Positions 4,960 through 21,397 of a stretch of DNA of 64,000 nucleotides are shown here, piece after piece. This DNA comes from Euzebyella marina (GTDB lineage: Bacteria > Bacteroidota > Bacteroidia > Flavobacteriales > Flavobacteriaceae), in contig NZ_JACYFK010000004.1 in assembly GCF_014855515.1 (NCBI RefSeq), forward strand, positions 186,001-250,000, written 5' to 3'. Below the pieces are notes generated by a model that saw only the letters and a list, made by a program, of their open reading frames with translations, was not told where the DNA came from and ran no database searches. Made by a program: the position numbers and the translations under genes. Numbering within the stretch: the stretch's first letter is position 1; every line of letters starts with the position of its first letter.

Positions 4960-5754
4960 ATGCCCAAGGAAAAACAAAAGTTATCGGCCCTCGTCATTAC
5001 CTACAACGAAATAGGTTACATTGAAAAATGTATTGAATCTGTCGAGTTTGCCGATGAAATTATTGTTGTTGATTCTTACAGTACCGATGGCACTTACGAA
5101 TATCTAAAAGAACATCCGAGGGTAAAGGTTATTCAGCATCCTTTTTCGAATTTCACTCAACAGAAATCTTTTGCGTTAAAACAAGCCTCTAATGATTGGG
5201 TCTTGTTTTTAGATGCTGATGAAGTGGTTTCGCAAAAGCTTCAAGTAGAGGTTAGTGCTACCATAAACAGTGAAACCGATGTTGCTGCCTTTTGGTTTTA
5301 TAGAAAGTTCATGTTTCTAAAGAGACCTTTGCATTTTAGCGGTTGGCAGACCGATAAAAATTATCGTCTTTTCAGAAAAAGTAAGGCGCGTTTTTCTGAC
5401 AAGAAAATTGTTCATGAGACTTTAATCGTTAATGGCTCTTCAGGAATTTTAAGGGAAAAACTCACCCATTTCTGCTATAAGAGCTATGAAGACTATAAAG
5501 GCAAAATGCTCAAGTACGGTAGATTGAAAGCTAAAGAAGATTTTTATAGGGAGAGAAGATACAATGTGCTTTCACTTGTATTTAAACCTCTTTGGAAATT
5601 CATTAATCACTATTTGATTCGTTTAGGTATTCTTGACGGTAAAAAAGGAATTACCATTTGCTATCTCAATGCTCTAGGAGATTTAGAAAGATACCGAGAA
5701 CTTAAAAAGCTTGAAAAGAAAAACGAACTGGCTTACTACTTGGTAATGCCGTGA
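4960..5754 (+). CDS. Glycosyltransferase family 2 (WaaE/KdtX-like)
   Basis: A 264-residue GT-A fold glycosyltransferase. The N-terminus LSALVITYNEIGYIEKCIESV begins the nucleotide-sugar fold, IIVVDSYSTDGT gives the first acidic cluster, and VLFLDADEVVS is the metal-binding DxD motif. This pattern (ADEIIVVDSYSTDGT...LFLDADE) is typical of the WaaE/KdtX-like GT2 group, which adds a hexose to LPS core heptose in proteobacteria; the acceptor here is unknown. There is no clear membrane segment. The 3' end overlaps the convergent GT2 gene by 19 bases. Context (two GT2 enzymes plus nonulosonic acid genes) points to lipopolysaccharide, lipooligosaccharide or capsule assembly. Confidence 0.85.
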   Translation: MPKEKQKLSALVITYNEIGYIEKCIESVEFADEIIVVDSYSTDGTYEYLKEHPRVKVIQHPFSNFTQQKSFALKQASNDWVLFLDADEVVSQKLQVEVSATINSETDVAAFWFYRKFMFLKRPLHFSGWQTDKNYRLFRKSKARFSDKKIVHETLIVNGSSGILREKLTHFCYKSYEDYKGKMLKYGRLKAKEDFYRERRYNVLSLVFKPLWKFINHYLIRLGILDGKKGITICYLNALGDLERYRELKKLEKKNELAYYLVMP

Positions 5755-6548
5755 TAGGTCCAGACACTTTTGTTCTGTCTAACCTCTTTTCTAATCACTT
5801 GATTTTTGGCAATTGCTTCCGGTGTCTTGTAACCACGTTCGTGATCAAGATGTATACATACAGCACTATACCTCAACTGTTTTGACTTGACCCCATAATT
5901 AAAAAGGCGCTCACCGAACTCCCGGTCTTCACCTCCATACTGCATCCGCTCGTCAAAACCGTTTACATTAAGAATGTCTTTTTTCCAACCAGATGAATTA
6001 TGTCCGTTCCAACTGGCATTGGTAGGGGTGAACGTATTGAAGAGTGTAGAAATAAACCCTCTAGCCGTTAGTTTGTTATTTTTGAATGTTTTGGGAATAC
6101 CTTTTTCTTTTAACCATTGAATGTTGAAGCAATTTTGCTTTTCTATATCTTCAAGGGTGATAGCCTTTGAAATATTCATTGGAAGCATATAGTAACCTCC
6201 AGAAATGAAATAGCCAGGCTCTTTATTTATATAGTGTACCTGAACAAAATCTTCTCTCGGTATACAATCACCATCTGTCATTATCACATATTCGGCACTA
6301 CAAGCCTTTACAGCCTTGTTTAAAATTCTGCATTTTTGAAAACCATCGTCTTCTTGCCAAACGTGTTTTATTTCAAAAGATACCTTATTTCGCAATTCAT
6401 CAACCAATTTCTTAGTTTCTTGACCAGAACCATCATCGGCAACGATGACTTCAAAATCTTTGTAGGTCTGGCACTGAAAGCCCCAAATTACCTTCTCGAG
6501 CCACTCTGGGTGGTTATAAGTACTTATGATGACACTGACCGTGCTCAT
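5736..6548 (-). CDS. Glycosyltransferase family 2 with galactosyltransferase-type C-terminal region
   Basis: A 270-residue GT-A enzyme starting VSVIISTYNHPEWLEKV. It has an acidic VIVADDGSGQET motif and a DxD motif (VIMTDGDCIP) for metal and nucleotide-sugar binding. The C-terminal half has the FDERMQYGGEDREFGERL segment typical of the glycosyltransferase 7C-type region found in chondroitin and galactosyl transferases. It lacks a signal peptide. Transcription is divergent from the sialyltransferase-like gene, from a promoter that abuts the opposing promoter at 6569-6584. The 3' end overlaps the other GT2 gene tail-to-tail by 19 bases. It probably adds one sugar of the same surface glycan; donor and acceptor are not known. 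Confidence 0.87.
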   Translation of the reverse strand: MSTVSVIISTYNHPEWLEKVIWGFQCQTYKDFEVIVADDGSGQETKKLVDELRNKVSFEIKHVWQEDDGFQKCRILNKAVKACSAEYVIMTDGDCIPREDFVQVHYINKEPGYFISGGYYMLPMNISKAITLEDIEKQNCFNIQWLKEKGIPKTFKNNKLTARGFISTLFNTFTPTNASWNGHNSSGWKKDILNVNGFDERMQYGGEDREFGERLFNYGVKSKQLRYSAVCIHLDHERGYKTPEAIAKNQVIRKEVRQNKSVWTYHGITK

Positions 6549-6568
6549 TACAATTGTTGAATTTTAGC

Positions 6569-6625: not shown

Positions 6626-7669
6626 ATGAAGCGAACCTACGTCGGGTCTACCATTTATCACATCTACCTTTCGCTTTTACATATACTGAAAGACAGCAAT
6701 TTTAATACCGAGAATAGAGGCAACAATCTTCTGTTTTTAATTGAAAGTACCCCTTTTATTGAAACTTTGATTCCCAATTTGAAAAAGAACTTCTTTAGAG
6801 ATGTACACATTATTTCAGAAAGAAAGATTCACAGACAAGAATTAGGCAAATTCAATTACTCCTTTAGAAGAAAGGCCACGCTCCTACCTTATCTAAGAAA
6901 GAAGCATACTATATTAATCGAAGAAAACGAGTTTATACTCGACTCAGAAATTTACCTTTGCGATACCGATTCGTCAAAAAGCTATTTTCTATATGCTTAT
7001 GGCCATAAGAAAATGAATATGATTGAAGATGGTGCCCGTACGTATAACCAACGTCATACCAGATTAGAACAGTTTTATAAAACTTATTTGACTAAGACAC
7101 CTATCGGCGGAGGTTTTGACCCAGAAATTAAAGCAATTTTTGCCCAGCATCCTGATAGATTGCCCCAACCGATAAGGTCGAAATCAAAAGAACTTAACAT
7201 TCGTCAAGTGGTCTCAAAATTAGATCAATCAACCAAATGTGAAATTTTCAATATTTTTTTGAGAGAACAAAATTTTCTATTCGCAGAAGGAAATCACGCT
7301 TTGGTGTTGACCCAACCCATTTCTGAAGATGGTGTAATTAAAAATGAAAATGAGAAGATTGCCATTTACAGAGATATTTTGTCGAAAATTCCTGGTGACA
7401 TGAACATCGTACTAAAAACACATCCGAGAGAGCATACCCGGTATGAAGAACATTTTAATAACATTACGGTTCTACCTGGGCTTTTTCCAATAGAAATCCT
7501 ATGCCTTAAAGAAGGTTTTCATTTCAACCATGGCTACACTTTATTTTCAACGGCGTTGACCAACCTAGATATAGTTAATAAGCGCTTTTTTCTAGGTAAA
7601 GATTATTTAGATAAATTTACCACCAAGGCTACCAGAAATCTAGTCAAAAACATGGTAGTAGACCTATAA
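6626..7669 (+). CDS. Sialyltransferase-like glycosyltransferase (GT52-like)
   Basis: A 347-residue protein carrying the three short motifs shared by bacterial sialyltransferases of families GT38, GT52 and GT80: a D/E-D/E-G motif (IEDG, Glu124-Asp125-Gly126), an HP motif (KTHPREHTRYE, His256-Pro257), and a late Ser/Thr motif (GYTLFSTAL). The order and the segment NITVLPGLFPIEIL after the HP motif fit GT52 best. The expected role is transfer of a nonulosonic acid from its CMP form to a surface glycan. The two genes that make such a donor follow directly, starting 9 bp after the stop. The ATG at 6626 is preferred over an in-frame TTG at 6554, because the TTG lies upstream of the -7 element. Linkage and acceptor cannot be read. 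Confidence 0.72.
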   Translation: MKRTYVGSTIYHIYLSLLHILKDSNFNTENRGNNLLFLIESTPFIETLIPNLKKNFFRDVHIISERKIHRQELGKFNYSFRRKATLLPYLRKKHTILIEENEFILDSEIYLCDTDSSKSYFLYAYGHKKMNMIEDGARTYNQRHTRLEQFYKTYLTKTPIGGGFDPEIKAIFAQHPDRLPQPIRSKSKELNIRQVVSKLDQSTKCEIFNIFLREQNFLFAEGNHALVLTQPISEDGVIKNENEKIAIYRDILSKIPGDMNIVLKTHPREHTRYEEHFNNITVLPGLFPIEILCLKEGFHFNHGYTLFSTALTNLDIVNKRFFLGKDYLDKFTTKATRNLVKNMVVDL

Positions 7670-7678
7670 TTAAGGCTT

Positions 7679-8851
7679 ATGTCAAAAAAGGCGATCGGTT
7701 TTATTCCCCTAAGAAAGGGCTCAAAGGGTATTCCAGGAAAAAACAAAAAAAAATTATTGGGTAGTCCCTTATTTACATGGGTTCTTACCGAAGCTTTGTT
7801 TTCAGACTTAGACGAGGTTTACATTTTTACCGATGATGATGAAATTATCGGCTACGTCAATCAAAATTTTAGCTGGTCTAAAAAAGTTAAAACCTTTAAA
7901 AGAGATGCTTCTAACGCCACAGATACTGCCAGCACAGAATCGGCTATGTTAGAGTTCTGTACAGAATCAAAGGTCTCTTTTGAAATATTTTGCCTTTTAC
8001 AGGCTACATCGCCAATGACTAAAAGCACAGATATTAATCTTGCACTTAAGAAATTGAGATCCGAAAATTACGATAGCTTGCTAAGTGTCGTAAAAACCCA
8101 TCGTTTCACATGGTCTAAAAATGGCGAATCTTTAAATTATGACTATAGAAATCGACCAAGAAGACAAGATTTCGATGGTTTACTTATTGAGAACGGGGCT
8201 ATTTATTGCACCACTCAAGAGGCTCTGATGAATTCCAGAAATAGACTTAGCGGTAAAATCGGAACTATTGAAATGGTTGAAGAATCTTTATCTGAAATCG
8301 ATTCTGAAACAGATTGGAGTATTATCGAACAGTTATTAATAAGCAAGTTTAAAACTAAAAAATCGCTAGGTCGTATCAACTATTTAATTTTAGATGTTGA
8401 TGGCGTTTTTACCGATGGTAAGGTTTCATTCAGTAAAGATGGCGAACTCTCAAAGGTATTTGATATGCGTGACGGAATGGGCTTAGAAATTTTGCGTCAG
8501 CATCAGGTAGAGATAATAGTTATGACTTCTGAAAATTCGGAAGTAGTAGCCCAAAGAATGAAAAAACTTAAAATCGAAAATACGTTCTTGGGTGTTAAGG
8601 ACAAATTTTCTTTTTTGCATAAAGTTTGTGAAGAGAAGGCTATTTCGTTTGAAAATTTGGCCTATATAGGTGATGATGTGAACGACTTGAGCAACATGTT
8701 AAGAGCAGCTTGGTCTTTTTGCCCGGCCAATGCGACAAAGGCTATAAAATATCACGCAGATATCATATTGAAAAACGATTCGGCCAATGGAGCCATCAGG
8801 GAAGCTTGTGAATTTATTATAAATTACAATTTAAGATTTAATGACTTATAA
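7679..8851 (+). CDS. Acylneuraminate cytidylyltransferase fused to KdsC-like HAD phosphatase
   Basis: A 390-residue two-domain enzyme. Residues 1-228 are a CMP-sialate/CMP-KDN synthetase: the nucleotide-binding FIPLRKGSKGIPGKN motif near residues 8-22, LLQATSPMTKSTDI near 106-119, and RRQDF at 161-165. Residues 230-390 are a KdsC/YrbI-type HAD phosphatase with nucleophile Asp239 and Asp241 in LILDVDGVFTDG, a Lys in the GVKDK segment, and IGDDVNDL as the metal site. Such a domain usually removes a sugar phosphate, suggesting that the synthase downstream makes a 9-phosphate that is dephosphorylated and then CMP-activated by this protein. It overlaps the synthase start by 11 bases. Full length with no frameshift. 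Whether the substrate is Neu5Ac, KDN or another nonulosonate is unknown. Confidence 0.86.
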   Translation: MSKKAIGFIPLRKGSKGIPGKNKKKLLGSPLFTWVLTEALFSDLDEVYIFTDDDEIIGYVNQNFSWSKKVKTFKRDASNATDTASTESAMLEFCTESKVSFEIFCLLQATSPMTKSTDINLALKKLRSENYDSLLSVVKTHRFTWSKNGESLNYDYRNRPRRQDFDGLLIENGAIYCTTQEALMNSRNRLSGKIGTIEMVEESLSEIDSETDWSIIEQLLISKFKTKKSLGRINYLILDVDGVFTDGKVSFSKDGELSKVFDMRDGMGLEILRQHQVEIIVMTSENSEVVAQRMKKLKIENTFLGVKDKFSFLHKVCEEKAISFENLAYIGDDVNDLSNMLRAAWSFCPANATKAIKYHADIILKNDSANGAIREACEFIINYNLRFNDL

Positions 8852-9710
8852 AAAGCCTTATGTTATTGCCGAAATAGGTTGTAACCATAAAGGAGATTTG
8901 AAAATAGCCAAAGAGCTAATCAATATGGCGAAGATATTTGGCAACGCCAACGCGGTAAAATTTCAAAAGAGAAACAATAAAGAACTATTAACCGATGAAC
9001 AATACAATGCTCCTCATCCAAATCCAATAAACTCATACGGTAAAACGTATGGCGAACATAGAGAGTTTTTAGAATTCAATTTAGACCAACATCGAGAATT
9101 GAAAGTTTTCTGCAAAGAAATATGTATTACCTATTCAACTTCTGTCTGGGATACTCATTCAGCAAAGGAGATTGCTAGCATCGATCCGGTATTTATTAAA
9201 ATACCATCTGCATGTAACAATAATTTTGAAATGTTAGATTGGCTTTGCGAAAATTACCGTGGCGAGATTCATATTTCAACCGGTATGACTACAAAGAATG
9301 AAATTGAGACTATCGTCAATTTCTTTGAGAAAAAGGGTCGTTCTAAAGATTTAGTAGTATACAATTGTACCTCGGGCTACCCTGTTCCGTTTGAAGATGT
9401 TTGTCTATTGGATATTATCAAGTTAAAGGACAAATATGGAAATCGAGTTAAGAACATCGGTTTTTCAGGCCATCACTTAGGTATAGCTATAGATGTTGCA
9501 GCATATACTTTGGGCGCCCATATTATAGAAAGACACTATACCCTAGACAGAACATGGAAAGGAACCGATCATGCAGCATCATTAGAACCTATGGGTTTAA
9601 GAAAATTATGCCGTGACCTTAACGCTACGTATGAAGCGCTAACCTATAAGCAGCAAGACATATTGGCTATAGAAGATGTTCAACGAAAGAAGTTAAAATA
9701 TCAGAAGTAA
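8841..9710 (+). CDS. NeuB-like nonulosonate (sialic acid / KDN) synthase, lacking SAF domain
   Basis: A 289-residue TIM-barrel synthase that condenses phosphoenolpyruvate with a mannose-type sugar. Signature segments are YVIAEIGCNHKGD at the N-terminus, NAVKFQKR, KIPSACNNNFEML, HISTGMTTKNEI, YNCTSGYPVP, IGFSGHHLG and IIERHYTLDRTWKGTDHAASLEP. Typical NeuB proteins are about 340-350 residues and end in an antifreeze-like SAF domain; this protein stops soon after the barrel, so that domain is absent. The ATG overlaps the 3' end of the cytidylyltransferase gene by 11 bases, and the stop shares one base with the next ATG, so translation is tightly coupled. No NeuC-type epimerase is nearby. Given the fused phosphatase, a phosphorylated substrate (ManNAc-6-P or Man-6-P) is plausible but inferred. 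Confidence 0.87.
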   Translation: MTYKKPYVIAEIGCNHKGDLKIAKELINMAKIFGNANAVKFQKRNNKELLTDEQYNAPHPNPINSYGKTYGEHREFLEFNLDQHRELKVFCKEICITYSTSVWDTHSAKEIASIDPVFIKIPSACNNNFEMLDWLCENYRGEIHISTGMTTKNEIETIVNFFEKKGRSKDLVVYNCTSGYPVPFEDVCLLDIIKLKDKYGNRVKNIGFSGHHLGIAIDVAAYTLGAHIIERHYTLDRTWKGTDHAASLEPMGLRKLCRDLNATYEALTYKQQDILAIEDVQRKKLKYQK

Positions 9711-10282
9711 TGGCGGCCGATTTTACCAAGGAAATAAATAGTTGTATCGATGTTCTTCAAAAAGGAGGACTCATCCTCTACCCTACAGATACTGTATGGG
9801 GTATTGGTTGTGATGCCACCAATACAGAAGCGGTAAAAAAAGTTTACGACATAAAAAATAGGGAAGACAGTAAAGCCCTTATCTGCTTGGTGGCCAATGA
9901 TGCAATGTTAGAGAGACACGTTGACTTTGTACCTGAACTGGCCTACGATTTGATAGATCTCTCAACCAAGCCGACTACTATTATCTACGACAGTCCGAAA
10001 GGTGTCGCAAAAAATCTAGTTGCTTCTGATGATACATTGGCCATTAGGGTCGCATCTGATAAATTTTGCCAGTATCTTATCAATAAATTCAAAAAACCTA
10101 TTGTTTCTACCTCGGCCAATATTTCAGGTCAGCCGACGCCTAGAACATTTGACGAAATTTCATCGGTCATTTTAAAAGGTGTAGACTATGTGGTAAATTT
10201 GCAGCCCGAACATAAAAATGCCGTTCCTTCAGCAATTATAAAATTGAGTAACGACGGAAAGGTTAAGGTGATTCGGGAGTAA
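9710..10282 (+). CDS. L-threonylcarbamoyladenylate synthase (Sua5/YrdC/YwlC family)
   Basis: A 190-residue YrdC-fold protein that makes threonylcarbamoyl-AMP from threonine, bicarbonate and ATP for t6A37 modification of ANN-decoding tRNAs. Conserved stretches are GGLILYPTDTVWGIGCDA near residues 20-37, KNREDSKALICLV, KPTTIIYD, LAIRVASD and IVSTSANISGQPTP. The length fits the YrdC-only form; no C-terminal Sua5 domain is present. The ATG shares its A with the preceding TAA (TAATG), so the gene is coupled to the nonulosonate genes, although the function is housekeeping. The CCA-adding enzyme, another tRNA gene, follows after 73 bases. Confidence 0.92.
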   Translation: MAADFTKEINSCIDVLQKGGLILYPTDTVWGIGCDATNTEAVKKVYDIKNREDSKALICLVANDAMLERHVDFVPELAYDLIDLSTKPTTIIYDSPKGVAKNLVASDDTLAIRVASDKFCQYLINKFKKPIVSTSANISGQPTPRTFDEISSVILKGVDYVVNLQPEHKNAVPSAIIKLSNDGKVKVIRE

Positions 10283-10355
10283 AAGGATAAGGACAAGTTG
10301 ATTACCAATTGTCCAACTGGGATGAACCCAAGCAAATTTTCAAACGAATTATCTA

Positions 10356-11774
10356 TTGAATCATCAGGACGCCTTAAACAACCCCATTTTTAAAATAGTT
10401 GCGGAAGCAGCTGACGAACTCGGTGTTTCCACTTACGTCATTGGCGGTTTCGTAAGAGACTATTTGCTACAAAGAGGAACTCCGAAAGATATTGATGTAG
10501 TCGCCGTAGGTAGCGGAATAGAACTTGCTCAAAAAGTAGCCACTAAATTAGAGGGCGCACCCCAAGTAGCCGTATTTAAAAACTTTGGTACGGCGATGAT
10601 CAAGCATGAAGGTATCGAACTGGAGTTCGTGGGTGCTAGAAAGGAAAGCTATCAGAGGGACAGTAGAAAACCAATTGTAGAAGACGGTACTCTGTCCGAT
10701 GATCAAAATAGGCGCGATTTCACGATCAATGCCTTGGCCATATCTCTTAACTCACACGATTATGGCACTCTATTAGATCCTTTCAATGGTCTCATCGATT
10801 TACAAAACAAATTAATCAAAACTCCTTTAGAACCCGGTATTACCTACTCTGACGACCCTCTACGAATGATGAGGGCAATTCGTTTTGCCACTCAATTAGA
10901 TTTCACAATAGAACTGAATTCATTAAAAGCTATCGTAGAAAATAAAGAACGGATAAAAATAGTCTCAAAAGAGCGGATTGTCGACGAACTGAACAAAATA
11001 CTATCTAGCTCAAAACCATCTAAAGGTCTTGGGCTTCTGCATAAAACTGAACTACTACCCTTTATACTGCCTGAACTGACAGCACTTCAAGGCATTGAAG
11101 AAAAAGAAGGGCAACGGCACAAAGATAACTTTTGGCACACCCTTGAAGTTGTTGACAATATTGCCGAAACTACCGAAAACCTCTGGTTACGTTGGGCTGC
11201 CCTATTACATGATATCGGTAAGGCACCTACCAAAAAATTCAATAAAAAAATAGGCTGGACATTTCATGGACATGAATTTGTAGGGTCAAAAATGGTTTAC
11301 AAGTTGTTCAAACGGTTACGAATGCCATTGAACGACAAAATGAAATATGTGCAAAAAATGGTGATGATGAGCTCAAGGCCTCAAATTCTTTCAGAAGATT
11401 TTGTGACCGATTCCGCTGTAAGGCGTCTTGTTTTCGAGGCGGGTGACCATGTTGACGATTTAATGACCCTTTGCGAAGCTGATATAACCACCAAAAATGC
11501 CAAAAAACAGAAAAAATATAAGAACAACTTCAAAATTGTTCGTCAAAAAATTCAAGAGGTAGAAGAACGTGATCATATTAGAAATTTTCAACCGCCCATA
11601 AGTGGTGAGGAAATTATGACCATTTTTAATCTACGCCCTTCGAAGGAAATTGGCATAATTAAAGATGCTATCAAAGAGGCAATTCTAGAGGGAGAAATAC
11701 CTAATGAATATGAAGCGGCCAAAGATTTTATGCTCACTAAAGGGAAAGAGTTGGGTTTAAAAAGTAATTTGTAG
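10356..11774 (+). CDS. cca: CCA tRNA nucleotidyltransferase with HD domain
   Basis: A class II tRNA nucleotidyltransferase (472 residues) that builds or repairs the 3' CCA of tRNAs. The head domain has [11 protein letters not shown] and the metal-binding Asp45-x-Asp47 in KDIDVVAVG, followed by the [10 protein letters not shown] motif. The neck is at [18 protein letters not shown]-terminal HD phosphohydrolase domain with ALLHDIGK and [10 protein letters not shown] occupies about residues 250-390. The start is TTG at 10356: the frame is closed upstream (TGA at 10323) with no ATG between, and the next Met is far inside the domain. Confidence 0.95.
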
Positions 11775-12334
11775 TCCTCCTACAAAACAAATTATTCAAC
11801 GATTTAGGCATTTTTATTTCCTACATGACCCCTTTCGCATTCCGCCTAGCATAAAAAGTTTTAACAAACTTCAATCAAGCGAAAACGTTTTATACATTTT
11901 GACATTTGATAATCGTTCAAGTGCAATAATATCAGATATTTATCGACAAACCACATTCTTTGCTCTGTTCACATCAAATTCATCTTTCCACCCAACAAAT
12001 ATTGAAACCGCACCATACCTTTACCTATATTTGTTTTGCCTACAATTTTTATATGTATTTTCTTACTTATTTAAATATTGAAATTCATCACTAGCAATGC
12101 TTAATAAATAAAACATCACATCATGAAAAAGAATGCTCCCCATTCAGCACAAAACATCATTATCTTATTTACTCAAATCATTTCCTCCTTCTTTAGTAAC
12201 GTTTTCCATTTACCGAATAACAGGGAATCAAAGAGCAGACTTTGCCCTGTAAGAATACGTCGAAACTAAAATTGGATACCTTTACGTTATTAGAAAAGAA
12301 AGAGTACCTACTTATATCGCCAAAAAATAAGATT
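11775..12334. other. Intergenic region, 560 bp, before porP copy 1
   Basis: No convincing gene. There is a 60-codon open frame (11899-12081) rich in Phe, Tyr and Leu, and a 46-codon frame from ATG 12123 to TAA 12269; neither resembles a known protein. Weak promoter-like matches are TACATTTT near 11894 and TACCTTTA at 12277-12284, the latter placed to drive porP copy 1. No terminator hairpin is evident after cca. Confidence 0.5.
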
Positions 12335-13273
12335 ATGAAAAATATTGTTGTCAGTACTTTCCTGCTCCTTTTGAGTGTCATTGGCCTTCAGGCCCAGCAA
12401 GATGCGCAGTACACCCAGTACATGTACAATACAATGGCAGTCAACCCTGCTTATGCCGGATCAAGGGGCGTGCTTAGTATAGCTGCGCTGCACAGGTCTC
12501 AATGGGTCGGGCTAGACGGCGCGCCCCGAACGCAGACATTGAATTTTCATACGCCGGTTTCCGAGCGGGTGGGCCTAGGCCTTTCCATAGTCAACGACGA
12601 GATTGGTAACGGCACCAACCAAGAAACCTATTTCGATGGTGTGTTCTCGTATACTATACCCCTTTCACGCGAGGCCAAGCTTTCCTTTGGCGTGAAAGCG
12701 ACCGCACACCTTCTGAACGTCGATTTCAACAAACTGGCCAATTACAATAACGAGGCCTCTTCCGTGGGTTTGAGCAATATAGACCGTAAGTTCTCACCCA
12801 ATTTTGGTGCCGGTGTATACTACCATACCGAGAATGCCTATGTGGGACTTTCGGTACCAAATTTTTTGAAGACAAAACATTTTGACGATTCGTCATCAAG
12901 TACTTCGTTTCTTGCAGAGGAGCGTATGAACATTTACCTGATTGCCGGTTATATTTTTGATATACACCCACAGTGGAAGTTCAAACCCGCAGGTCTGGTC
13001 AAGGCCGTTAGCGGTGCCCCATTACAGGTTGACCTTTCAGCTAATTTTCTATACAACGACAAATTCACCCTCGGTGCTGCTTACCGTTGGGATGCTGCCC
13101 TTAGCGCTATGTTCGGTTTTCAGTTAACCGATCAATTCCTGATTGGCCTCGCCTATGATCGTGAAGTAACGGAACTAGGAGGCACCAGATTCAACGACGG
13201 GTCTTTCGAGATTTTGTTGAGATACGAGTTCCTTACTCGCTACAAAAGAATTATAACGCCCAGATTCTTCTAA
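12335..13273 (+). CDS. PorP/SprF family T9SS membrane protein, copy 1
   Basis: A 312-residue outer-membrane beta-barrel of the PorP/SprF family. In flavobacteria SprF is required to secrete SprB, whose C-terminal sorting domain is type B. A signal peptide (STFLLLLSVIGLQA) is followed by the family hallmark QQDAQYTQYMYNT and NPAYAGSRG, then alternating strands ending FEILLRYEFLTR. The ATG at 12335 is chosen because the signal peptide starts there; an upstream in-frame ATG at 12242 would add a charged stretch. A PorE-like gene follows after 10 bases. The protein is closely similar to copy 2 at 20455, with the same length. The DNA looks more GC-rich than copy 2. Confidence 0.93.
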   Translation: MKNIVVSTFLLLLSVIGLQAQQDAQYTQYMYNTMAVNPAYAGSRGVLSIAALHRSQWVGLDGAPRTQTLNFHTPVSERVGLGLSIVNDEIGNGTNQETYFDGVFSYTIPLSREAKLSFGVKATAHLLNVDFNKLANYNNEASSVGLSNIDRKFSPNFGAGVYYHTENAYVGLSVPNFLKTKHFDDSSSSTSFLAEERMNIYLIAGYIFDIHPQWKFKPAGLVKAVSGAPLQVDLSANFLYNDKFTLGAAYRWDAALSAMFGFQLTDQFLIGLAYDREVTELGGTRFNDGSFEILLRYEFLTRYKRIITPRFF

Positions 13274-13283
13274 ATAAAATAAC

Positions 13284-15236
13284 ATGAAAAACAGACGGCC
13301 GATACTGGTAGGGCTCTCGCTGTTTGCCCTTTTTTCCATCAGCGCCCAGACGCAGAAAATAAAAAAGGCCGACGAGGCCTACGAAACCTTTGCCTACCAT
13401 GATGCTATCGAAAGCTATGAAAGTTTGGTCGCAAAAGGATATGAAGGAAGGGAAATCTACAGAAATCTTGGTAATTCCAACTACCATAATGCACGATATG
13501 AGGATGCAGCCTCTTGGTACGGCAAGTTCTTCATGGAAACGGGTTCAGAGGATGATGCCCATCCGGAGATGATGTACCGTTACGCCCAATCGCTCAAATC
13601 TACTGGAGAGTATACCGCCGCGGAAACTTGGATGAAGAAATTCGAGGCAGCGCAGAACGAAGACCTTAGAGCAGAAAAGTTCAGAAGCCAACCTGACTAC
13701 CTTGAGCGAATAGAAAAAATGTCGGGCAGGTACGAAATCAGCAATCTGGCAATCAATTCTCCCGAATCTGACTTTGCCCCCTCCAAGCTGGGAGAGACAC
13801 TTATCTTCTCAACAGCTAGGGATACAGGTAAGACTTTTAGAAACGTTCACGAATGGAACAACCGTTCATTTCTGAACTTATACAAAGCCACCCCCGGTAC
13901 CGGTGGCATGTATCAAAATGCTGTTAAGCTTCCCAAAAGCATGAATAAAAAGACCCACGAGTCGACCACCACTTTTACCAGAGATGGCAATACGGTGTAC
14001 TTTACCCGTAACAATTCCGACGATGGGCGTTTCGAGCGTGACGATGAAGGTGTCAGCAGGTTGAAAATCTTCAGGGCCGAAATTGATGGCGACCAATGGA
14101 AGAACGTTACAGAACTGCCCTTTAACGGCGATTCGTATTCATCGGCGCACCCTACCCTTAGCCCCGATGGAAGGAAACTTTTTTTCGCCTCCGACAGAGA
14201 AGGAAGTCATGGGGCCTCCGACATCTTTGTGGTAGAAGTAAACGAAGACGGTACTTTTGGTGAACCCAAGAACTTGGGTAGTAAAATCAATACCGAATCA
14301 AGGGAAACTTTTCCCTTTATAACCGATGACAATATTCTCTATTTCGCATCAGATGGCCATCCAGGGCTTGGAGGACTTGACATATTTGCGGTCAGGATTG
14401 ATGGAGAGAATATATCCGATATTATTAACCTGGGCAAACCGGTGAACGGCGAACAGGATGATTTCTCCTTCTATATCGATCACGACACAAATACAGGCTT
14501 CTTTGCCTCCAATAGAAAGGGAGGAAAAGGTAGTGACGATATTTATTCCTTTAAAGAAAACCGACCTATTGCGTTTGAATGCAAGAAGACCTTTGGTGGG
14601 ATTGTTAGGCAGGGCGATGGCAACCTTCCTTTGGCCAATGTTGCATTTGAATTGATAGGACCTAATGGTAACGTTGTTTCCCAGAGCCGCACCGATGCCG
14701 AAGGCAATTTTGAATTCGAAGTTGAATGTAACGAAGGCCCTGAGTTGAGATTAAAAGCTTCCAAAAAGGAGTTCGAGAGCTATGAAATGGCCATCGATAT
14801 TGAAAATATCGAAGATGGTAGGCTTCTGGCCCTTAACCTGAAAAAAGAAGTAATAATGGCTCCAAAAGGTACTAATCTTATTACCTACCTGAAACTGGAA
14901 CCCATCTATTTCGACCTAGATAAGGATGTAATCAGGCCAGATGCCAGGCATACCATGCAAATGGTCATTGACTACCTCAAAGAATATCCTCAGATGAAAA
15001 TTGAGGTTCAATCACATACCGATGCAAAGGCAAGTGATGCCTATAATATGAACCTATCGGCAAGAAGAGCCAAAAACACAGAGGCCTATCTGATTGCCAA
15101 TGGCATAGCCGACGAAAGAATTAGCAACAAGGGCTTCGGCGAATCCCGACTCGTGAACGATTGCAAAGACAGGAATTCATGTCCCGATGAAAAACATCAG
15201 GCGAACAGAAGATCAGAATTTATTGTGGTCGATTAA
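13284..15236 (+). CDS. PorE-like OmpA family protein (TPR, beta-propeller, CRD, OmpA), copy 1
   Basis: A 650-residue envelope protein with the domain order described for the T9SS protein PorE of Porphyromonas: TPR-like helices (residues ~25-135), a PD40/WD40-like propeller starting at SDFAPSKLGETLIFSTARD (~150-430), a carboxypeptidase-regulatory-like domain (~435-520), and an OmpA domain binding peptidoglycan (~545-650, PIYFDLDKDVIRP, MNLSARRAKN). A signal peptide ending SISAQ is visible. The OmpA domain has a small Cys-containing insert (NDCKDRNSCPDE) also found in copy 2. It is preceded by porP copy 1 at 10 bases and followed by a strong terminator, so the pair is one operon. It likely tethers the PorP-like protein or translocon to the cell wall. 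Confidence 0.9.
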   Translation: MKNRRPILVGLSLFALFSISAQTQKIKKADEAYETFAYHDAIESYESLVAKGYEGREIYRNLGNSNYHNARYEDAASWYGKFFMETGSEDDAHPEMMYRYAQSLKSTGEYTAAETWMKKFEAAQNEDLRAEKFRSQPDYLERIEKMSGRYEISNLAINSPESDFAPSKLGETLIFSTARDTGKTFRNVHEWNNRSFLNLYKATPGTGGMYQNAVKLPKSMNKKTHESTTTFTRDGNTVYFTRNNSDDGRFERDDEGVSRLKIFRAEIDGDQWKNVTELPFNGDSYSSAHPTLSPDGRKLFFASDREGSHGASDIFVVEVNEDGTFGEPKNLGSKINTESRETFPFITDDNILYFASDGHPGLGGLDIFAVRIDGENISDIINLGKPVNGEQDDFSFYIDHDTNTGFFASNRKGGKGSDDIYSFKENRPIAFECKKTFGGIVRQGDGNLPLANVAFELIGPNGNVVSQSRTDAEGNFEFEVECNEGPELRLKASKKEFESYEMAIDIENIEDGRLLALNLKKEVIMAPKGTNLITYLKLEPIYFDLDKDVIRPDARHTMQMVIDYLKEYPQMKIEVQSHTDAKASDAYNMNLSARRAKNTEAYLIANGIADERISNKGFGESRLVNDCKDRNSCPDEKHQANRRSEFIVVD

Positions 15237-15505: not shown

Positions 15506-18500
15506 TTGGCGAATATTTTAAAAAAAATACAGGGGCTACTATTCTTAACTCTAATCTTCAACTTTGGAGTATACGCTCAGCAGACCACCACTTGGAATTC
15601 TATTTCCCCCTCTGTTTGGGAAACTATAAGTTCCGATGGGCTGGTACGTGTTGAATGCCATGTCTCGGGAGGTACTTTTATCATAGGCAATGAAATAATG
15701 GGTTGTACAGATGCATCGACCTATAGCGACCCAAATATTTTTGGTAGTACTTCCCTAGAAATCCAAGCTAGCGCCAGCACCCATGGTACACTTAATTTTT
15801 ACTTTTTTGATGCCGTAACAGACGACCCCGTAAATATTATCGAACCTGTTCTACATGTTGACAAAGTGGGTACATTGGAAGTACTGACCGTACTCCCCTT
15901 ATTTTCAGAAGCCGCCACTGCAAATTTTAATCTTTCAAACGGAACCTGGACCGAGCTTAGTTCAAACGGACCCATTTTTCGTTCAACACCAACTCAATTC
16001 AATATTGATGATGATGCCCTTTTGTTCAGTTTTGGTGGGGAATGTGGCAATGGAACCAATACGGGTACAGGTGGAGGTAGCCTCCAAATCAACTCGACTA
16101 CTGAATCAATCGAGATGGATACCAACGTCACCGGAGGCTTACTGGCCTTCTTTACAGCTTCTGACGCAGTTGAGTTTGTACTCTCTGAATTGATCATCGC
16201 CAATCCTGAACTAGAGGTGACAAAAACGGTAAGTGAAAATTTTACTGATCCCGTATCTGTGGGTGACGTTATTGACTACACTATTACCATTGAAAATACA
16301 GGAAATGTACCGCTTGACAATATTCGATTAAACGATGTCTTAAATGACGCAGATGGTATCGCACTTACCTTAACCAATGGGCCAAGCTTTTCAGGAAACA
16401 GTCTTGGTTCGCCAGAAGGTACTCTTGAACCTTCTGAAGTAGCTACCTATTTGGCTAGTTATACTCTAAGCAGTTCTACGATTCAAACAGGAGGGGTTAT
16501 AAATCAAGTTTCAGTTTTGGCCAATAGTCCTTTTGACGTTGATGATGTAAACGACACCTCTGACGACGGAAATGATTCTGATGGAAATACCACTGATGAT
16601 CCAACAGAAAGCTATTTTCCTTTGGTAAGAAATGATTCTCAAACTGTTTGCGAGAACGGCACTATAGACATAAATGTTCTGGCCAATGATGATTTTGGCG
16701 GAAATGGTCCCTCAGCCGGAACCATATTTCTTATAAGCTCACCTACCTCGGGAACGGCCATTGTTAATGATAACGGCACTGCTACCACCCCTATTGACGA
16801 CTATGTATCGTATACATCGGCACCCGGCTATACAGGAAGCGATAGTTTCATCTACGGTATACGTGATGCTCTAGGATATACTCAACATGGCACGGTCACC
16901 ATTACCGAACAGGCATTACCTGATGCAGGTACTGACGGTAATTTAACGATTTGCGAAGGGTCGTCGGTGACTGCCAGCGATTTATTTGCTGAATTAGGGG
17001 GAACTCCCGATTCGGGAGGTACTTGGTCACCCGCTCCATCCGGCGCAGGCACCTACACCTATACGGTAGCCCCCACTTCACCCTGTACAGCTCCTGCCAC
17101 GGCAGAAATTATTGTAACCGAACAAGCCCAGCCAAATGCAGGTACAGATGGAAATCTTACCATTTGCGAGGGGGAAAGTGTAACCGCAAGCCAATTGTTC
17201 GCCCAATTAGGGGGAACTCCCGATTCGGGAGGTACTTGGTCTCCAGCTCTTTCAGGAGCGGGAACGTATACATATACGGTCAATGCTACTTTGCCTTGTA
17301 CCGTTCCTAGTACCGCAGAGGTAGTGGTTACCGAACAAGCTGCACCGAATGCAGGTAGCAATGGAAATTTGACTATTTGTGAAGGAGCTTCTTTTACCGA
17401 AGCAGACCTTTTTGCGAGACTAGGCGGCACACCCGACTCTGGCGGCACTTGGTCTCCAACTCCATCAGGTGCGGGCACATACACATATACAGTTTCGCCC
17501 ACAACACCTTGCGTCTCCCCAGCCACTTCCGAAGTCATTGTAACCGAACAGGCCCAGCCTCATGCGGGAAGCGATGGCACATTAACTATTTGTGAGGGTG
17601 AAAGTATTACCGCTACAGAGCTTTTCTCCAGATTAGGTGATACACCTGATTCGGGTGGCACTTGGTCTCCGACTCCTGCCGGGGCGGGAACTTATGTCTA
17701 TACCGTAACAGGAAACGCACCTTGCAGTGGAAAGGACACCGCAGAAGTAACGGTTAGTGAGCAAACTTCACCAAATGCAGGATCTAACGGAATACTGACT
17801 ATTTGCGAAGGAACGTCTTTTACAGAATCAGATTTATTTGCGCAGATAGGCGGTAATCCTGATTTAGGAGGAACATGGTCTCCAACAATTTCGGGCGCCG
17901 GAACCTATACCTATACCGTAGCGCCTACCAGCCCCTGTACAGTGGCTGCCACTTCTGAAGTGGTTGTTGTAGAGCAAACGGCACCAAATGCTGGAACTAA
18001 CGGAAACTTAACTATATGTGAGGGAAGTACTTTTACTGAAAACGACCTTTTTGCAGAACTAGGAGGCAACCCAGATTCAGGAGGTACTTGGTCTCCTTCC
18101 ATCGCAGGGGCTGGAACCTACACCTATACGGTCTCGAGTACACTGCCATGTACAGGCAATGACACTTCGCAGGTAGTGGTGACCGCTCAACCTGCCCCAG
18201 ATGCGGGAACAAATGGATCTTTAACTATTTGTGAAGGAACAATTGTATCAGAAAGCCAATTATTTGCCCAGCTTGGAGGATCCCCGGATACGGGAGGGAC
18301 ATGGTCTCCCACCCTCTCCGGTGCAGGAACATACACATATACCGTTAATGCACAATCTCCTTGTTCCATTCCGGCTTCTGCCGAAGTTACTGTAACTGAA
18401 CAGGCCGCCCCGAATTCGGGGTCGAACGGTTCATTGGTTATATGCGAAGGAGCGTCATTTACAGAGTCTGATTTGTTTGCACAATTGGGCGACACCCCTG

Positions 18501-20446
18501 ATTCAGGTGGTACTTGGTCTCCTGCAATTTCCGGCCCGGGAACTTATACCTACACCGTACCAGCTAGCTCACCATGCTCGTCGCCATCCGCTTCAAGCGT
18601 AACGGTAACCGAACAATCCAATCCTAGTGCAGGTACCGACGGTTCTTTAATCATTTGTGAAGGGGCTAGTGTAACCGAAGCCGATTTGTTTACTGAACTA
18701 GGTGGTAATCCAGATACCGGAGGAACATGGTCACCTTCTTTCTCGGGAGCTGGCACCTATACCTATACAGTGGCATCTACCTCCCCATGTGTTGGCAATG
18801 ACTCATCACAGGTGGTCGTTACAGAACAGACTTTGCCCAATGCCGGAACGGACGGTAATTTAATATTGTGCGAAGGCACCACTTTTAATACTGCTGATCT
18901 TTTTACCCAATTAGGAGGGACACCCGATTCGGGAGGAAGCTGGTCACCCGCTATCGCAGGTGCAGGAACTTATACGTATACGGTTCAACCAACGACCCCG
19001 TGCGCACAGCCTGCATCCTCACAAATATCGGTAACCTATATTGACGCCCCTGACGCCGGTGCCGATGGATCTTTAACCGTCTGTGAAGGCTCTTCCTTTT
19101 CTGAGTCAGACTTGTTTTCAAGTCTTAATGGGAATCCTGATGAAGGAGGAACTTGGTCTCCAACCCCTGCCGGTCCAGGTATCTACACCTACACGGTTTC
19201 CCCGACCGCTCCATGCGCCTCACCCTCAACTTCAGAGGTGGTGGTCACCGAGCAGACGGCCCTCAATGCCGGATTAGATGGTATTTTGACTATTTGCGAA
19301 GGAACAATGGTAGACACTAATAGCCTCTTTGCAAGTTTAGGGGGAACCCCTGATACTGGCGGAGCTTGGTCACCTATGCCAAACGGCGCGGGAATTTATA
19401 CTTACACGGTCTCCAATAGTTTTTGTGAAAGTGTGAGTGCTACTATTGAAGTTCAAGAAGAGATCAGGCCCAATGCTGGTCAAAGCACCTCTTTAGTGGT
19501 GTGCCCTGGCATTACCGTTTCCTCGGCTCAATTACTTGAGCTATTGGGTACCACCGACACCCGAGGAACTTGGAGTCCGAACCCTGATGGTGCCGGAGAA
19601 GGCATCTATACATATACGGTAAGTGGCAATGCTTGCAGCCAACCCTCTTCTGCCAGTGTTACCATAACTGTCTCAGACCTTGACTCAGATGGCGATGGTG
19701 TTTTAGATTGTGATGAAGTAGAACACGGTAAAGACCCCTATAATGACTGCGACTCTATTGGTGGAAAACCTTTGCCCACCAGCGATTGTGATAATGATGG
19801 TTTAACAGAGGAGGAAGAAAATCTTTTAGGTACAGATCCTACCAATCCTGACACCGATGGCGATGGTGTTTTAGATGGCCAGGAAGTGACCGATTTTACA
19901 GATCCGCTTGACCCATGCGATTTTCTTTTGGTCAATCAAACTCTTACCCCATCTGACGAGTGGACCCAAATGGATTGTGACATGGATGGTCTTACAAATG
20001 AGCAAGAAATGGAAATCGGAACAGATTTAATCAACCCCGACACAGATGGCGATACCATTATGGATGGACAAGAGGTTACCGATGGCACTGACCCATTAGA
20101 CCCGTGCGACTCAAGGGGAGGAAGTGCACCGGCCCATATTGGTTGCGAACTTTATGTTGAACTAGACCTAGTTAAACCCGGTGATATACTCAATGGCACT
20201 TTTCAAATCATCAATATTGAAAGATTCCCTGATAATCAAGTGGAAATATATAATCGTTGGGGAGTATTGGTATGGGAGACTTCTAGGTACGATAACAAGA
20301 ATAATGCTTTTGATGGTAAATCAAAAGGACGCATAACGATTATAGAAAATCAAAAACTACCATCAGGGGTTTATTTCTATGAAATCAAGTATGTATCAGA
20401 TGGTGAAGACAAAATTAAAACTGGCTACCTCTACGTAATGAGATAG
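15506..20446 (+). CDS. Repeat-rich surface adhesin with T9SS type B (gliding motility) C-terminal domain
   Basis: A 1646-residue secreted protein. A signal peptide (GLLFLTLIFNFGVYA) follows the TTG start at 15506; an in-frame TAA at 15491 rules out an earlier start. Domains in order: an N-terminal region of unknown fold (~25-230), a DUF11-like domain (233-~365, NPELEVTKTV), a cadherin/Ig-like domain (~372-471), thirteen tandem repeats of about 71 residues (472-1392) each with an ICEG Cys and a later PC Cys, thrombospondin type 3-like Asp-rich calcium repeats (~1393-1540), and a gliding motility-associated C-terminal domain (~1556-1646: VEIYNRWGVLVWE, LPSGVYFYEIKY). It is presumably exported by T9SS and held at the surface. 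A PorP/SprF gene begins 8 bases after the stop, which suggests a dedicated partner. Confidence 0.9.
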   Translation: MANILKKIQGLLFLTLIFNFGVYAQQTTTWNSISPSVWETISSDGLVRVECHVSGGTFIIGNEIMGCTDASTYSDPNIFGSTSLEIQASASTHGTLNFYFFDAVTDDPVNIIEPVLHVDKVGTLEVLTVLPLFSEAATANFNLSNGTWTELSSNGPIFRSTPTQFNIDDDALLFSFGGECGNGTNTGTGGGSLQINSTTESIEMDTNVTGGLLAFFTASDAVEFVLSELIIANPELEVTKTVSENFTDPVSVGDVIDYTITIENTGNVPLDNIRLNDVLNDADGIALTLTNGPSFSGNSLGSPEGTLEPSEVATYLASYTLSSSTIQTGGVINQVSVLANSPFDVDDVNDTSDDGNDSDGNTTDDPTESYFPLVRNDSQTVCENGTIDINVLANDDFGGNGPSAGTIFLISSPTSGTAIVNDNGTATTPIDDYVSYTSAPGYTGSDSFIYGIRDALGYTQHGTVTITEQALPDAGTDGNLTICEGSSVTASDLFAELGGTPDSGGTWSPAPSGAGTYTYTVAPTSPCTAPATAEIIVTEQAQPNAGTDGNLTICEGESVTASQLFAQLGGTPDSGGTWSPALSGAGTYTYTVNATLPCTVPSTAEVVVTEQAAPNAGSNGNLTICEGASFTEADLFARLGGTPDSGGTWSPTPSGAGTYTYTVSPTTPCVSPATSEVIVTEQAQPHAGSDGTLTICEGESITATELFSRLGDTPDSGGTWSPTPAGAGTYVYTVTGNAPCSGKDTAEVTVSEQTSPNAGSNGILTICEGTSFTESDLFAQIGGNPDLGGTWSPTISGAGTYTYTVAPTSPCTVAATSEVVVVEQTAPNAGTNGNLTICEGSTFTENDLFAELGGNPDSGGTWSPSIAGAGTYTYTVSSTLPCTGNDTSQVVVTAQPAPDAGTNGSLTICEGTIVSESQLFAQLGGSPDTGGTWSPTLSGAGTYTYTVNAQSPCSIPASAEVTVTEQAAPNSGSNGSLVICEGASFTESDLFAQLGDTPDSGGTWSPAISGPGTYTYTVPASSPCSSPSASSVTVTEQSNPSAGTDGSLIICEGASVTEADLFTELGGNPDTGGTWSPSFSGAGTYTYTVASTSPCVGNDSSQVVVTEQTLPNAGTDGNLILCEGTTFNTADLFTQLGGTPDSGGSWSPAIAGAGTYTYTVQPTTPCAQPASSQISVTYIDAPDAGADGSLTVCEGSSFSESDLFSSLNGNPDEGGTWSPTPAGPGIYTYTVSPTAPCASPSTSEVVVTEQTALNAGLDGILTICEGTMVDTNSLFASLGGTPDTGGAWSPMPNGAGIYTYTVSNSFCESVSATIEVQEEIRPNAGQSTSLVVCPGITVSSAQLLELLGTTDTRGTWSPNPDGAGEGIYTYTVSGNACSQPSSASVTITVSDLDSDGDGVLDCDEVEHGKDPYNDCDSIGGKPLPTSDCDNDGLTEEEENLLGTDPTNPDTDGDGVLDGQEVTDFTDPLDPCDFLLVNQTLTPSDEWTQMDCDMDGLTNEQEMEIGTDLINPDTDGDTIMDGQEVTDGTDPLDPCDSRGGSAPAHIGCELYVELDLVKPGDILNGTFQIINIERFPDNQVEIYNRWGVLVWETSRYDNKNNAFDGKSKGRITIIENQKLPSGVYFYEIKYVSDGEDKIKTGYLYVMR
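16919..19681 (+). repeat. Thirteen tandem ~213-bp coding repeats
   Basis: Eleven units are exactly 213 bp (71 codons), the twelfth is 207 bp (starts 19262) and the thirteenth 213 bp (starts 19469). Conserved in each unit are an NAG-type start, an ICEG (or VCPG) Cys motif, an LF/LL segment, GGTWSP, a GAGTYTYTV motif, a PC or lone Cys, and a VTEQ-type end. The last two units are the most diverged. Two Cys per unit could form a disulfide. Confidence 0.95.
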
Positions 20447-20454
20447 TATTCGAT

Positions 20455-21393
20455 ATGAAAGCAAACTGGTTTAAAATAGTATTTTTTCTTCTTGCAGCAG
20501 TACCCCTGTACGCTCAGCAAGACGCTCAATTTACCCAGTACATGTATAATACTTTGACCGTAAATCCAGCATATGCCGGATCAAGGGGTGCATTGGGGGC
20601 TTCAATTCTTCATCGCTCCCAGTGGGTTGGGCTTGATGGTGCACCAAGCACCCAAACCTTCAATATTCAAGGTCCCTATTCTGAAAAAGTGGGTCTAGGA
20701 TTATCGATTGTTCATGATGAAATAGGTAACAACACAAATCAAAATACTTATTTCGATGTTGCTTTTTCTTATAGCGTACCTACCTCAGAAAAATATAGGT
20801 TGAATTTCGGTATTATGGCCGGAGGCCATATGCTCAACATCGATTTCAACAAACTAAGAAATTACAGTGCAAGTTTGGCTCCATCGGTCGAAGAAGAACT
20901 ATACAAGCGTTTTTCACCGAATATCGGGGCAGGTATTTATTTTCATTCGAACAAATTTTATATCGGCCTATCGGTTCCGGATCTTTTAGAAACAGAGCAC
21001 TTTCAAAACCCTGATGACGAAGGAAGTGTGTTCGCCTCCGAACGTATGAACTTTCATTTGATATCTGGATATGTCTTTGACCTTAATCCGTCTTTAAAGT
21101 TCAAACCAGCTTATTTAATAAAAGCCGTTCCTGGAGCTCCATTACAGATAGACCTTTCTGCAAATTTCTGGTTCAACGAGAAATTCACTTTGGGTGCCGC
21201 TTATCGCTTAGATGCTGCCGTAAGTGCGCTCATGGGTTTTCAAATGGGCAAAAAGTTTATGTTAGGCCTGGCATATGACAGAGAGGTTTCCTCTCTTGGC
21301 GGCACTCGTTTCAATGATGGTTCATTTGAGGTTTTTCTTAGGTACGAGTTCATTAAAAATGAAAAAATTGACCTAACCCCAAGATTTTTCTAA
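20455..21393 (+). CDS. PorP/SprF family T9SS membrane protein, copy 2
   Basis: A 312-residue paralogue of the protein at 12335, with the same QQDAQFTQYMYNT and NPAYAGSRG hallmarks after a signal peptide (VFFLLAAVPLYA), and the same C-terminal FEVFLRYEFIK then TPRFF ending. It is expected to be an outer-membrane barrel that works with a type B-sorted substrate. The ATG is 8 bases after the adhesin stop, and the PorE-like copy 2 begins 4 bases after this stop, making an adhesin-PorP-PorE operon. Alignment by eye shows identity spread over the whole length, so duplication of the pair rather than domain sharing is likely. Confidence 0.94.
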   Translation: MKANWFKIVFFLLAAVPLYAQQDAQFTQYMYNTLTVNPAYAGSRGALGASILHRSQWVGLDGAPSTQTFNIQGPYSEKVGLGLSIVHDEIGNNTNQNTYFDVAFSYSVPTSEKYRLNFGIMAGGHMLNIDFNKLRNYSASLAPSVEEELYKRFSPNIGAGIYFHSNKFYIGLSVPDLLETEHFQNPDDEGSVFASERMNFHLISGYVFDLNPSLKFKPAYLIKAVPGAPLQIDLSANFWFNEKFTLGAAYRLDAAVSALMGFQMGKKFMLGLAYDREVSSLGGTRFNDGSFEVFLRYEFIKNEKIDLTPRFF

Positions 21394-21397
21394 ACAG

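Follow-up and report, generated by a model that had tools for sequence, protein, structure and literature searches.

Which nonulosonic acid is made by a short NeuB-family synthase encoded beside a cytidylyltransferase that is fused to a phosphatase, and is it made through a 9-phosphorylated intermediate? This question is raised by a gene pair of Euzebyella marina (Flavobacteriaceae), found in a stretch of 64,000 nucleotides (positions 186,001 to 250,000 of contig NZ_JACYFK010000004.1, assembly GCF_014855515.1) that is hereafter called the window and provides the coordinates given below. The first gene (7679..8851, + strand) is an open reading frame (ORF) encoding a fusion protein of 390 amino acids (aa), and its last 11 bases are shared with the second (8841..9710, + strand), which encodes a synthase of 289 aa. 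An earlier note on this DNA had described that overlap correctly and had proposed that the bacterium makes a 9-phosphorylated nonulosonate, dephosphorylated and activated with cytidine monophosphate (CMP) on one polypeptide. This proposal appears well supported by the residues of the phosphatase domain of the HAD family, by the genes NeuC and NanE being mostly or wholly missing, and by the kinship of the synthase. The sugar, which the note had left open, would narrow further, as the evidence points to 2-keto-3-deoxy-D-glycero-D-galacto-nononic acid (KDN, also written Kdn) formed from mannose-6-phosphate (Man-6-P) rather than to N-acetylneuraminic acid (Neu5Ac).

Judging from sequence and predicted structure, the two genes most probably make CMP-KDN from Man-6-P by the 9-phosphate route, with the dephosphorylating and the activating enzymes in one protein. 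The synthase, devoid of a SAF domain (8841-9710), would condense Man-6-P, supplied by phosphomannose isomerase, with phosphoenolpyruvate to KDN-9-phosphate (KDN-9-P). The HAD domain of the fusion (8363-8851) would convert the latter to KDN, which would be handed over to the cytidylyltransferase half of that fusion (7679-8362) and coupled with cytidine triphosphate (CTP) to give CMP-KDN. A GT52-type transferase encoded upstream (6626-7669) would then probably add KDN to a cell-surface glycan. What the analysis shows directly is which domains are present, that the genes recur as a pair, that catalytic and specificity residues are kept, that no ManNAc supply gene is recognised and how the synthases are related; the individual activities, the sugar, its hand-over between domains and the part played by the transferase are deduced from this.

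The fusion protein and its phosphatase domain

The N-terminal domain (7679..8362, + strand; RPRRQDFDGLLIENG) is assigned as a CMP-nonulosonate, probably CMP-KDN, synthetase by Pfam and Protein Data Bank (PDB) matches. In the Pfam scan, residues 7-183 correspond to CTP_transf_3 (PF02348, E 4.5e-17) and HAD models fall in the C-terminal part. The closest solved structure is PpNeuA (9t4z, 251 aa) with 153.6 bits, followed by 1qwj, a CMP-Neu5Ac synthetase, with 114 bits. PpNeuA is probably the CMP-Kdn synthetase of the alga Prymnesium parvum plus a tag; the algal enzyme was expressed as residues 1-233 and makes no CMP-Neu5Ac (PMC6200933). The C-terminal domain (8363..8851, + strand) is a HAD phosphatase of the KdsC/YrbI type, the NCBIfam model TIGR01670 for KdsC-type phosphatases covering residues 234-382 with 128.2 bits (cut-off 106.95). 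PF02348 and TIGR01670 thus bear out the domain content that had been read from the 390 residues, a cytidylyltransferase followed by a KdsC-type HAD. The DVDG (239-242) and GDD (331-333) motifs are intact, as had also been stated, and D239, D241, G242, K309, G331, D332 and D333 are invariant in an alignment of 17 rows. The AlphaFold2 model of the whole fusion is confident, with a predicted local distance difference test score (pLDDT) of 90.8 and a predicted template modelling score (pTM) of 0.89.

Conservation was followed in 124 fusion ORFs (115 distinct) that exceed 350 aa and clearly match both halves. In the numbering of the Bacteroides thetaiotaomicron phosphatase BT1713, the window HAD carries D10, D12, T54, E56, R64, K67, K80, D103, D104 and D107, and the six catalytic residues D10, D12, T54, K80, D103 and D104 are kept in 124/124 fusions. 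The HAD domain of the window therefore looks catalytically active, a property that is at odds with its possible role as a non-catalytic oligomerisation module, the synthase then working on an unphosphorylated sugar. Such a module has a true parallel, since C-terminal HAD-like domains are carried by synthetases of vertebrates and of some bacteria, and vertebrate CMAS shares with the window protein an N-terminal synthetase followed by a C-terminal HAD-like domain; the C-domain of the mouse enzyme is described as devoid of phosphatase activity and as having a role in oligomerisation (PMC8636478). The bacterial HAD, unlike the mouse domain, keeps its six catalytic residues throughout, and the synthase groups apart from NeuB proteins linked to NeuC. 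Genome G087 is also informative: at one of its loci (L108), with housekeeping neighbours as in the window, the N-domain of the fusion has lost the RPRRQ region and the HAD residues are kept, and at another (L107) a synthetase of 227 aa made of the N-domain only lies beside a short synthase. A degenerate N-domain, an intact HAD and a separate synthetase form the pattern that would be expected if HAD activity were needed in its own right. Taken together, we consider the oligomerisation role very improbable. The RPRRQ string also differs by one letter in each of the fusions of L078 and L150.

The substrate of the HAD domain is suggested by a second set of residues. In B. thetaiotaomicron, Wang and colleagues are said to have described in 2008 a KDN pathway composed of the phosphatase BT1713, the synthase BT1714 and the synthetase BT1715 (cited in PMC6200933); the same three steps are predicted here, and the window HAD shares Glu56, Arg64 and Lys67 of BT1713. 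This Glu/Arg/Lys set is found in 124/124 fusion ORFs (115 distinct), as well as in the HAD pieces of L128 and L165, two fusions that are outside that set. According to the abstract of a 2013 study in Biochemistry by Daughtry and colleagues, the Glu/Lys pair reportedly marks KDN-9-P phosphatases, which are said to be either single-domain proteins or fused to the nucleotidyltransferase of the pathway, the very fusion of the window protein. Relative to the unaltered BT1713 chain, chain 4hgq has Ala at position 56 and chain 4hgr has Ala at both 56 and 67.

The same positions bear on a second pathway for 3-deoxy-D-manno-octulosonic acid (Kdo), in which the synthase would use arabinose-5-phosphate and the fusion would deliver CMP-Kdo. 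The HAD does belong to the KdsC/YrbI family (TIGR01670), but its position 56 is a Glu, which is replaced by Arg in the KdsC-type chains compared and by Gly in the separate KdsC of the source genome (Gly56, Arg64, Ala67), and the N-domain resembles synthetases of the sialic-acid type much more closely than it does KdsB. As the source genome thus has a KdsC-type gene of its own and the synthase is of the NeuB family (220 bits), this Kdo side pathway was rejected, and we give it hardly any probability.

The SAF-less synthase and its relatives

The synthase gene (8841..9710, + strand), whose start codon lies within the end of the fusion gene, encodes a NeuB-family protein without SAF, probably a KDN-9-P synthase to judge from its Pfam match, its barrel model and its place in a tree. 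That a short NeuB adjoins the fusion, as noted earlier, is confirmed by its 289 aa and by a PF03102 match of 220 bits; the Pfam scan reported no other domain, SAF included, and the window synthase consequently lacks the C-terminal SAF domain that is a feature of NeuB in the classical Neu5Ac pathway. Its AlphaFold2 model is confident (pLDDT 87.3, pTM 0.87) and shows a full barrel of eight strands, after which come two helices only and no further domain. The best structural matches of this model are SpsE, PseI and the NeuB proteins of Leptospira and Neisseria, with the synthases of 3-deoxy-D-arabino-heptulosonate 7-phosphate (DAHP) and Kdo-8-phosphate ranking lower.

We take the classical NeuB to use its SAF domain near the N-acetyl group of the substrate, a domain that the compact synthase would have dropped. 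In the Neisseria enzyme, for which R314A and R314K mutants appear among PDB titles, Arg314 is presumably the SAF residue located there. The loss of SAF fits a KDN synthase, since a substrate without N-acetyl group would not need this residue. Such a loss is not required for the KDN route, given that the synthases of L112-L115, encoded beside KDN-9-P-type phosphatases, keep a C-terminal stretch after the barrel. These Bacteroides-type systems differ from the window pair in that their phosphatase is a separate gene and their synthase has 344-353 aa instead of 289 aa, with 33-36% identity between the two. Met42 of human NANS, a reported determinant of KDN synthesis, was considered as a possible marker but abandoned, because its column is not conserved among the short synthases; a literature search on this residue found nothing usable.

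Kinship was assessed in a tree of 48 rows, which included 19 short synthases out of 116 distinct ones and left out the over-long ORF of L081. All 19 cluster together (100/100), and they share one side of a branch supported at 100/98 with six synthases encoded beside KDN-9-P-type phosphatases, 20 other NeuB falling apart. In this grouping the window synthase resembles the Bacteroides-type KDN pathway, although the six phosphatase-linked synthases are joined to each other at 89/74 only. A motif, G-x-[TS]-Y-G-x-H-[RK], divides the proteins in the same way, being present in every distinct short synthase (116/116), as well as L081 and 6/6 of the linked long synthases, and in 0/20 other NeuB; it was defined after the alignments had been viewed, so that its clean split is descriptive and provides no independent test.

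A few unusual ORFs accompany KDN-9-P-type genes elsewhere. L116 (5370-7115, 581 aa) and L117 (8347-10140, 597 aa) each combine, by eye, a nucleotidyltransferase-like N-terminus with a long NeuB-family synthase beside a KDN-9-P-type HAD, and would by the same visual reading represent another type of fusion within this kind of pathway. At L113, a KDN-9-P-type synthase and phosphatase are adjoined by an ORF of 559 aa (9304-10983), which is NeuB-like at its N-terminus and has another long region besides.

Precursor supply and the sugar made

The order of steps would be identical in an animal-like Neu5Ac-9-phosphate route, where the synthase would use N-acetylmannosamine-6-phosphate (ManNAc-6-P), the HAD would yield Neu5Ac and the N-domain CMP-Neu5Ac. 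The fusion follows the domain order of the vertebrate CMP-sialic acid synthetase, and a human NANS sequence, which serves as a lead only, shares the motif of the window synthase and, along 285 residues, about 39% identity with it. However, this NANS sequence scores similarly on several NeuC-linked NeuB, the HAD has the KDN-type Glu/Lys pair, and the genes expected to supply N-acetylmannosamine (ManNAc) or its phosphate are not recognised. Indeed, NeuC was over its cut-off in 2/42 genomes with the fusion (below in 40/42), both of which carry a second, full-length NeuB, versus 16/16 control genomes with a stand-alone NeuA. These controls are 16 of the 26 non-fusion genomes matching the N-domain only, namely the best-scoring ones without G187 and its odd frame of 578 aa. 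NanE, which along with a GNE-type kinase is one of the two sources of ManNAc-6-P expected for an animal-type route, was over its cut-off in 0/58 genomes (42 fusion and 16 control); the source genome has no clear ManNAc kinase and a single ROK protein of 244 aa.

Similarly, NeuC of the classical Neu5Ac pathway was not found in the source genome, which encodes a single NeuB and whose sole Epimerase_2 protein is of the WecB type (295 bits for a cut-off of 210, compared with 64 on the NeuC model, where 236 is needed). A type I mannose-6-phosphate isomerase is encoded in this genome. With NeuC and NanE missing, we rank the Neu5Ac-9-phosphate route second and consider it unlikely, the KDN route from Man-6-P being preferred.

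Several observations weigh against the KDN route. The identity of PpNeuA with the Prymnesium enzyme is deduced from name and length. On NF058599, the NCBI model for KDN-9-P phosphatases, the window HAD reaches 126.8 bits, below the cut-off of 180 and about equal to its score on the general KdsC-type model, and NF058599 also matches a second site in the source genome (E <= 1e-25). Related fusions score higher, those of L118 and L120 exceeding the cut-off with 192.7 and 182.0 bits; in favour of the KDN route, short synthases 63-69% identical to that of the window lie, at L118, L120, L122 and L123, beside fusions whose HAD has 176-193 bits on this model. The residue at position 107 is Asp in 117 of the 124 fusion ORFs and Cys in 7/124. 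The Glu/Lys pair is present as well in 5/11 stand-alone HADs provisionally labelled KdsC-type (11 of 19 loci tried, those caught by a simple filter), and hence is not proof of KDN. The synthase tree contains several long branches.

On the side of supply, a second NeuB-family match occurs in 9/42 fusion genomes, seven of them without NeuC over the cut-off; these seven thus contain other nonulosonate genes that go without NeuC, whose absence does not set the fusion pathway apart. The supply argument also assumes that Neu5Ac requires NeuC or NanE, and the source genome has one clear protein of the GlcNAc 2-epimerase family (PF07221), which appears to carry a lipoprotein signal, besides another, marginal match to PF07221 and the ROK protein mentioned above.

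Distribution, neighbouring genes and significance

A match to the whole fusion was obtained in 42/249 sampled genomes of Flavobacteriaceae, the source genome included. In a sample of the phylum, full-length matches were found in 10/395 genomes assigned to four families by the codes of the tool, an eleventh match covering the HAD part only. A scan of named genomes, some of whose loci belong to genomes also present in the family sample, confirmed 576 loci, of which 80 were examined. Among these matches listed, 79/80 named loci have the fusion ORF sharing its locus with a short NeuB. The exception is L165 of Flavobacterium covae, where the fusion ORF is split into 163 + 179 aa; many short ORFs surround it, and sequencing frameshifts are one possible cause. 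The fusion of L128 is truncated by the end of its contig. The genera among the matches listed include Euzebyella, Maribacter, Flagellimonas, Flavobacterium, Algibacter, Tamlana, Nonlabens, Polaribacter and Mangrovibacterium, the last from another family, Prolixibacteraceae; Flavobacterium columnare, which causes disease in fish, is one of the species. Fusion and short synthase are on one strand in 120/122 fetched loci with both genes, and adjacency is not universal. The recurrence of the fusion in the family sample and its pairing with a short NeuB in the named loci indicate that it is not due to chance.

Directly upstream of the fusion gene, the candidate transferase of the CMP-activated sugar is a GT52-type glycosyltransferase (6626..7669, + strand; 347 aa from the ATG at 6626, the ORF opening with a TTG at 6554) matching PF07922 (89 bits) and PF07388 (33.9 bits) in Pfam. 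Its E-D-G and H-P motifs, invariant in an alignment of nine rows, are characteristic of bacterial sialyltransferases (PMC5811610). An equivalent gene occupies the same position in L070-L076 and, among the matches listed, in 14/80 named loci. Two further glycosyltransferase genes belong to this conserved neighbourhood: a GT2/GT7C-like one (5736..6548, - strand; PF00535, PF02709), found at the same position in L070-L073, L075 and L076, and a GT2 one (4960..5754, + strand; PF00535), with an equal neighbourhood in L070-L076. In many polysaccharide clusters of other species, a gene coding for about 463-468 aa is found one or two positions past the synthase (for example L079:10877-12268 and L139:6968-8365); of two examples submitted to Pfam, one gave CDP-glycerol glycerophosphotransferase below the cut-off and the other gave no match, and this gene may encode the enzyme that transfers the sugar there. 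Further along the window, a gene pair (312-343 aa, then 641-650 aa) occurs twice, at 12242-15236 and 20455-23323, on both sides of a protein of 1646 aa (15506-20446) in which an 'ICEG' repeat recurs many times.

The fused architecture is already known in outline, and the window pair does not represent a novel type of system but a widespread example of this one. For B. thetaiotaomicron and P. parvum, the 9-phosphate route to KDN is established (PMC6200933). The algal pathway, like the one proposed here, leads from Man-6-P through KDN-9-P to CMP-Kdn, and its synthetase is probably the best PDB match of the N-domain. It differs in that a search of the alga for a homologue of the phosphatase was negative and in that the algal synthetase carries a transmembrane stretch at its C-terminus, a HAD not being mentioned (PMC6200933). 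A Leptospira synthase with a C-terminal phosphatase domain (PMC3438082) was set aside as a precedent, the extra domain being located on the synthase; the text calls this domain homologous to endonucleases. Literature searches on a bifunctional CMP-sialic acid synthetase with a phosphatase domain and on sialic acid genes of Accumulibacter found no paper, and searches on KDN or nonulosonate synthesis in flavobacteria, based on the titles and beginnings of abstracts listed (20 of 345 in one case) with few subscription papers covered, found no report of KDN synthesis for the group. A 2011 review of carbohydrate antigens of marine bacteria reports pseudaminic acid for Cellulophaga fucicola and, for Flexibacter, a nonulosonic acid, and a term count gave no instance of the word Kdn in its main text (PMC3210612).

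On balance, it seems somewhat more plausible than the contrary that many Flavobacteriaceae, in a patchy manner, display KDN or a derivative on their surface by means of a phosphatase/CMP-KDN synthetase with both functions in one protein and of a compact synthase that lacks SAF. If true, KDN would be a common flavobacterial surface sugar, one that was not reported there in the sources consulted. The pattern of presence suggests a simple genome rule to distinguish bacteria that make KDN from those that make Neu5Ac, and the compact synthase would offer a small test bed for the function of the SAF domain in NeuB enzymes.

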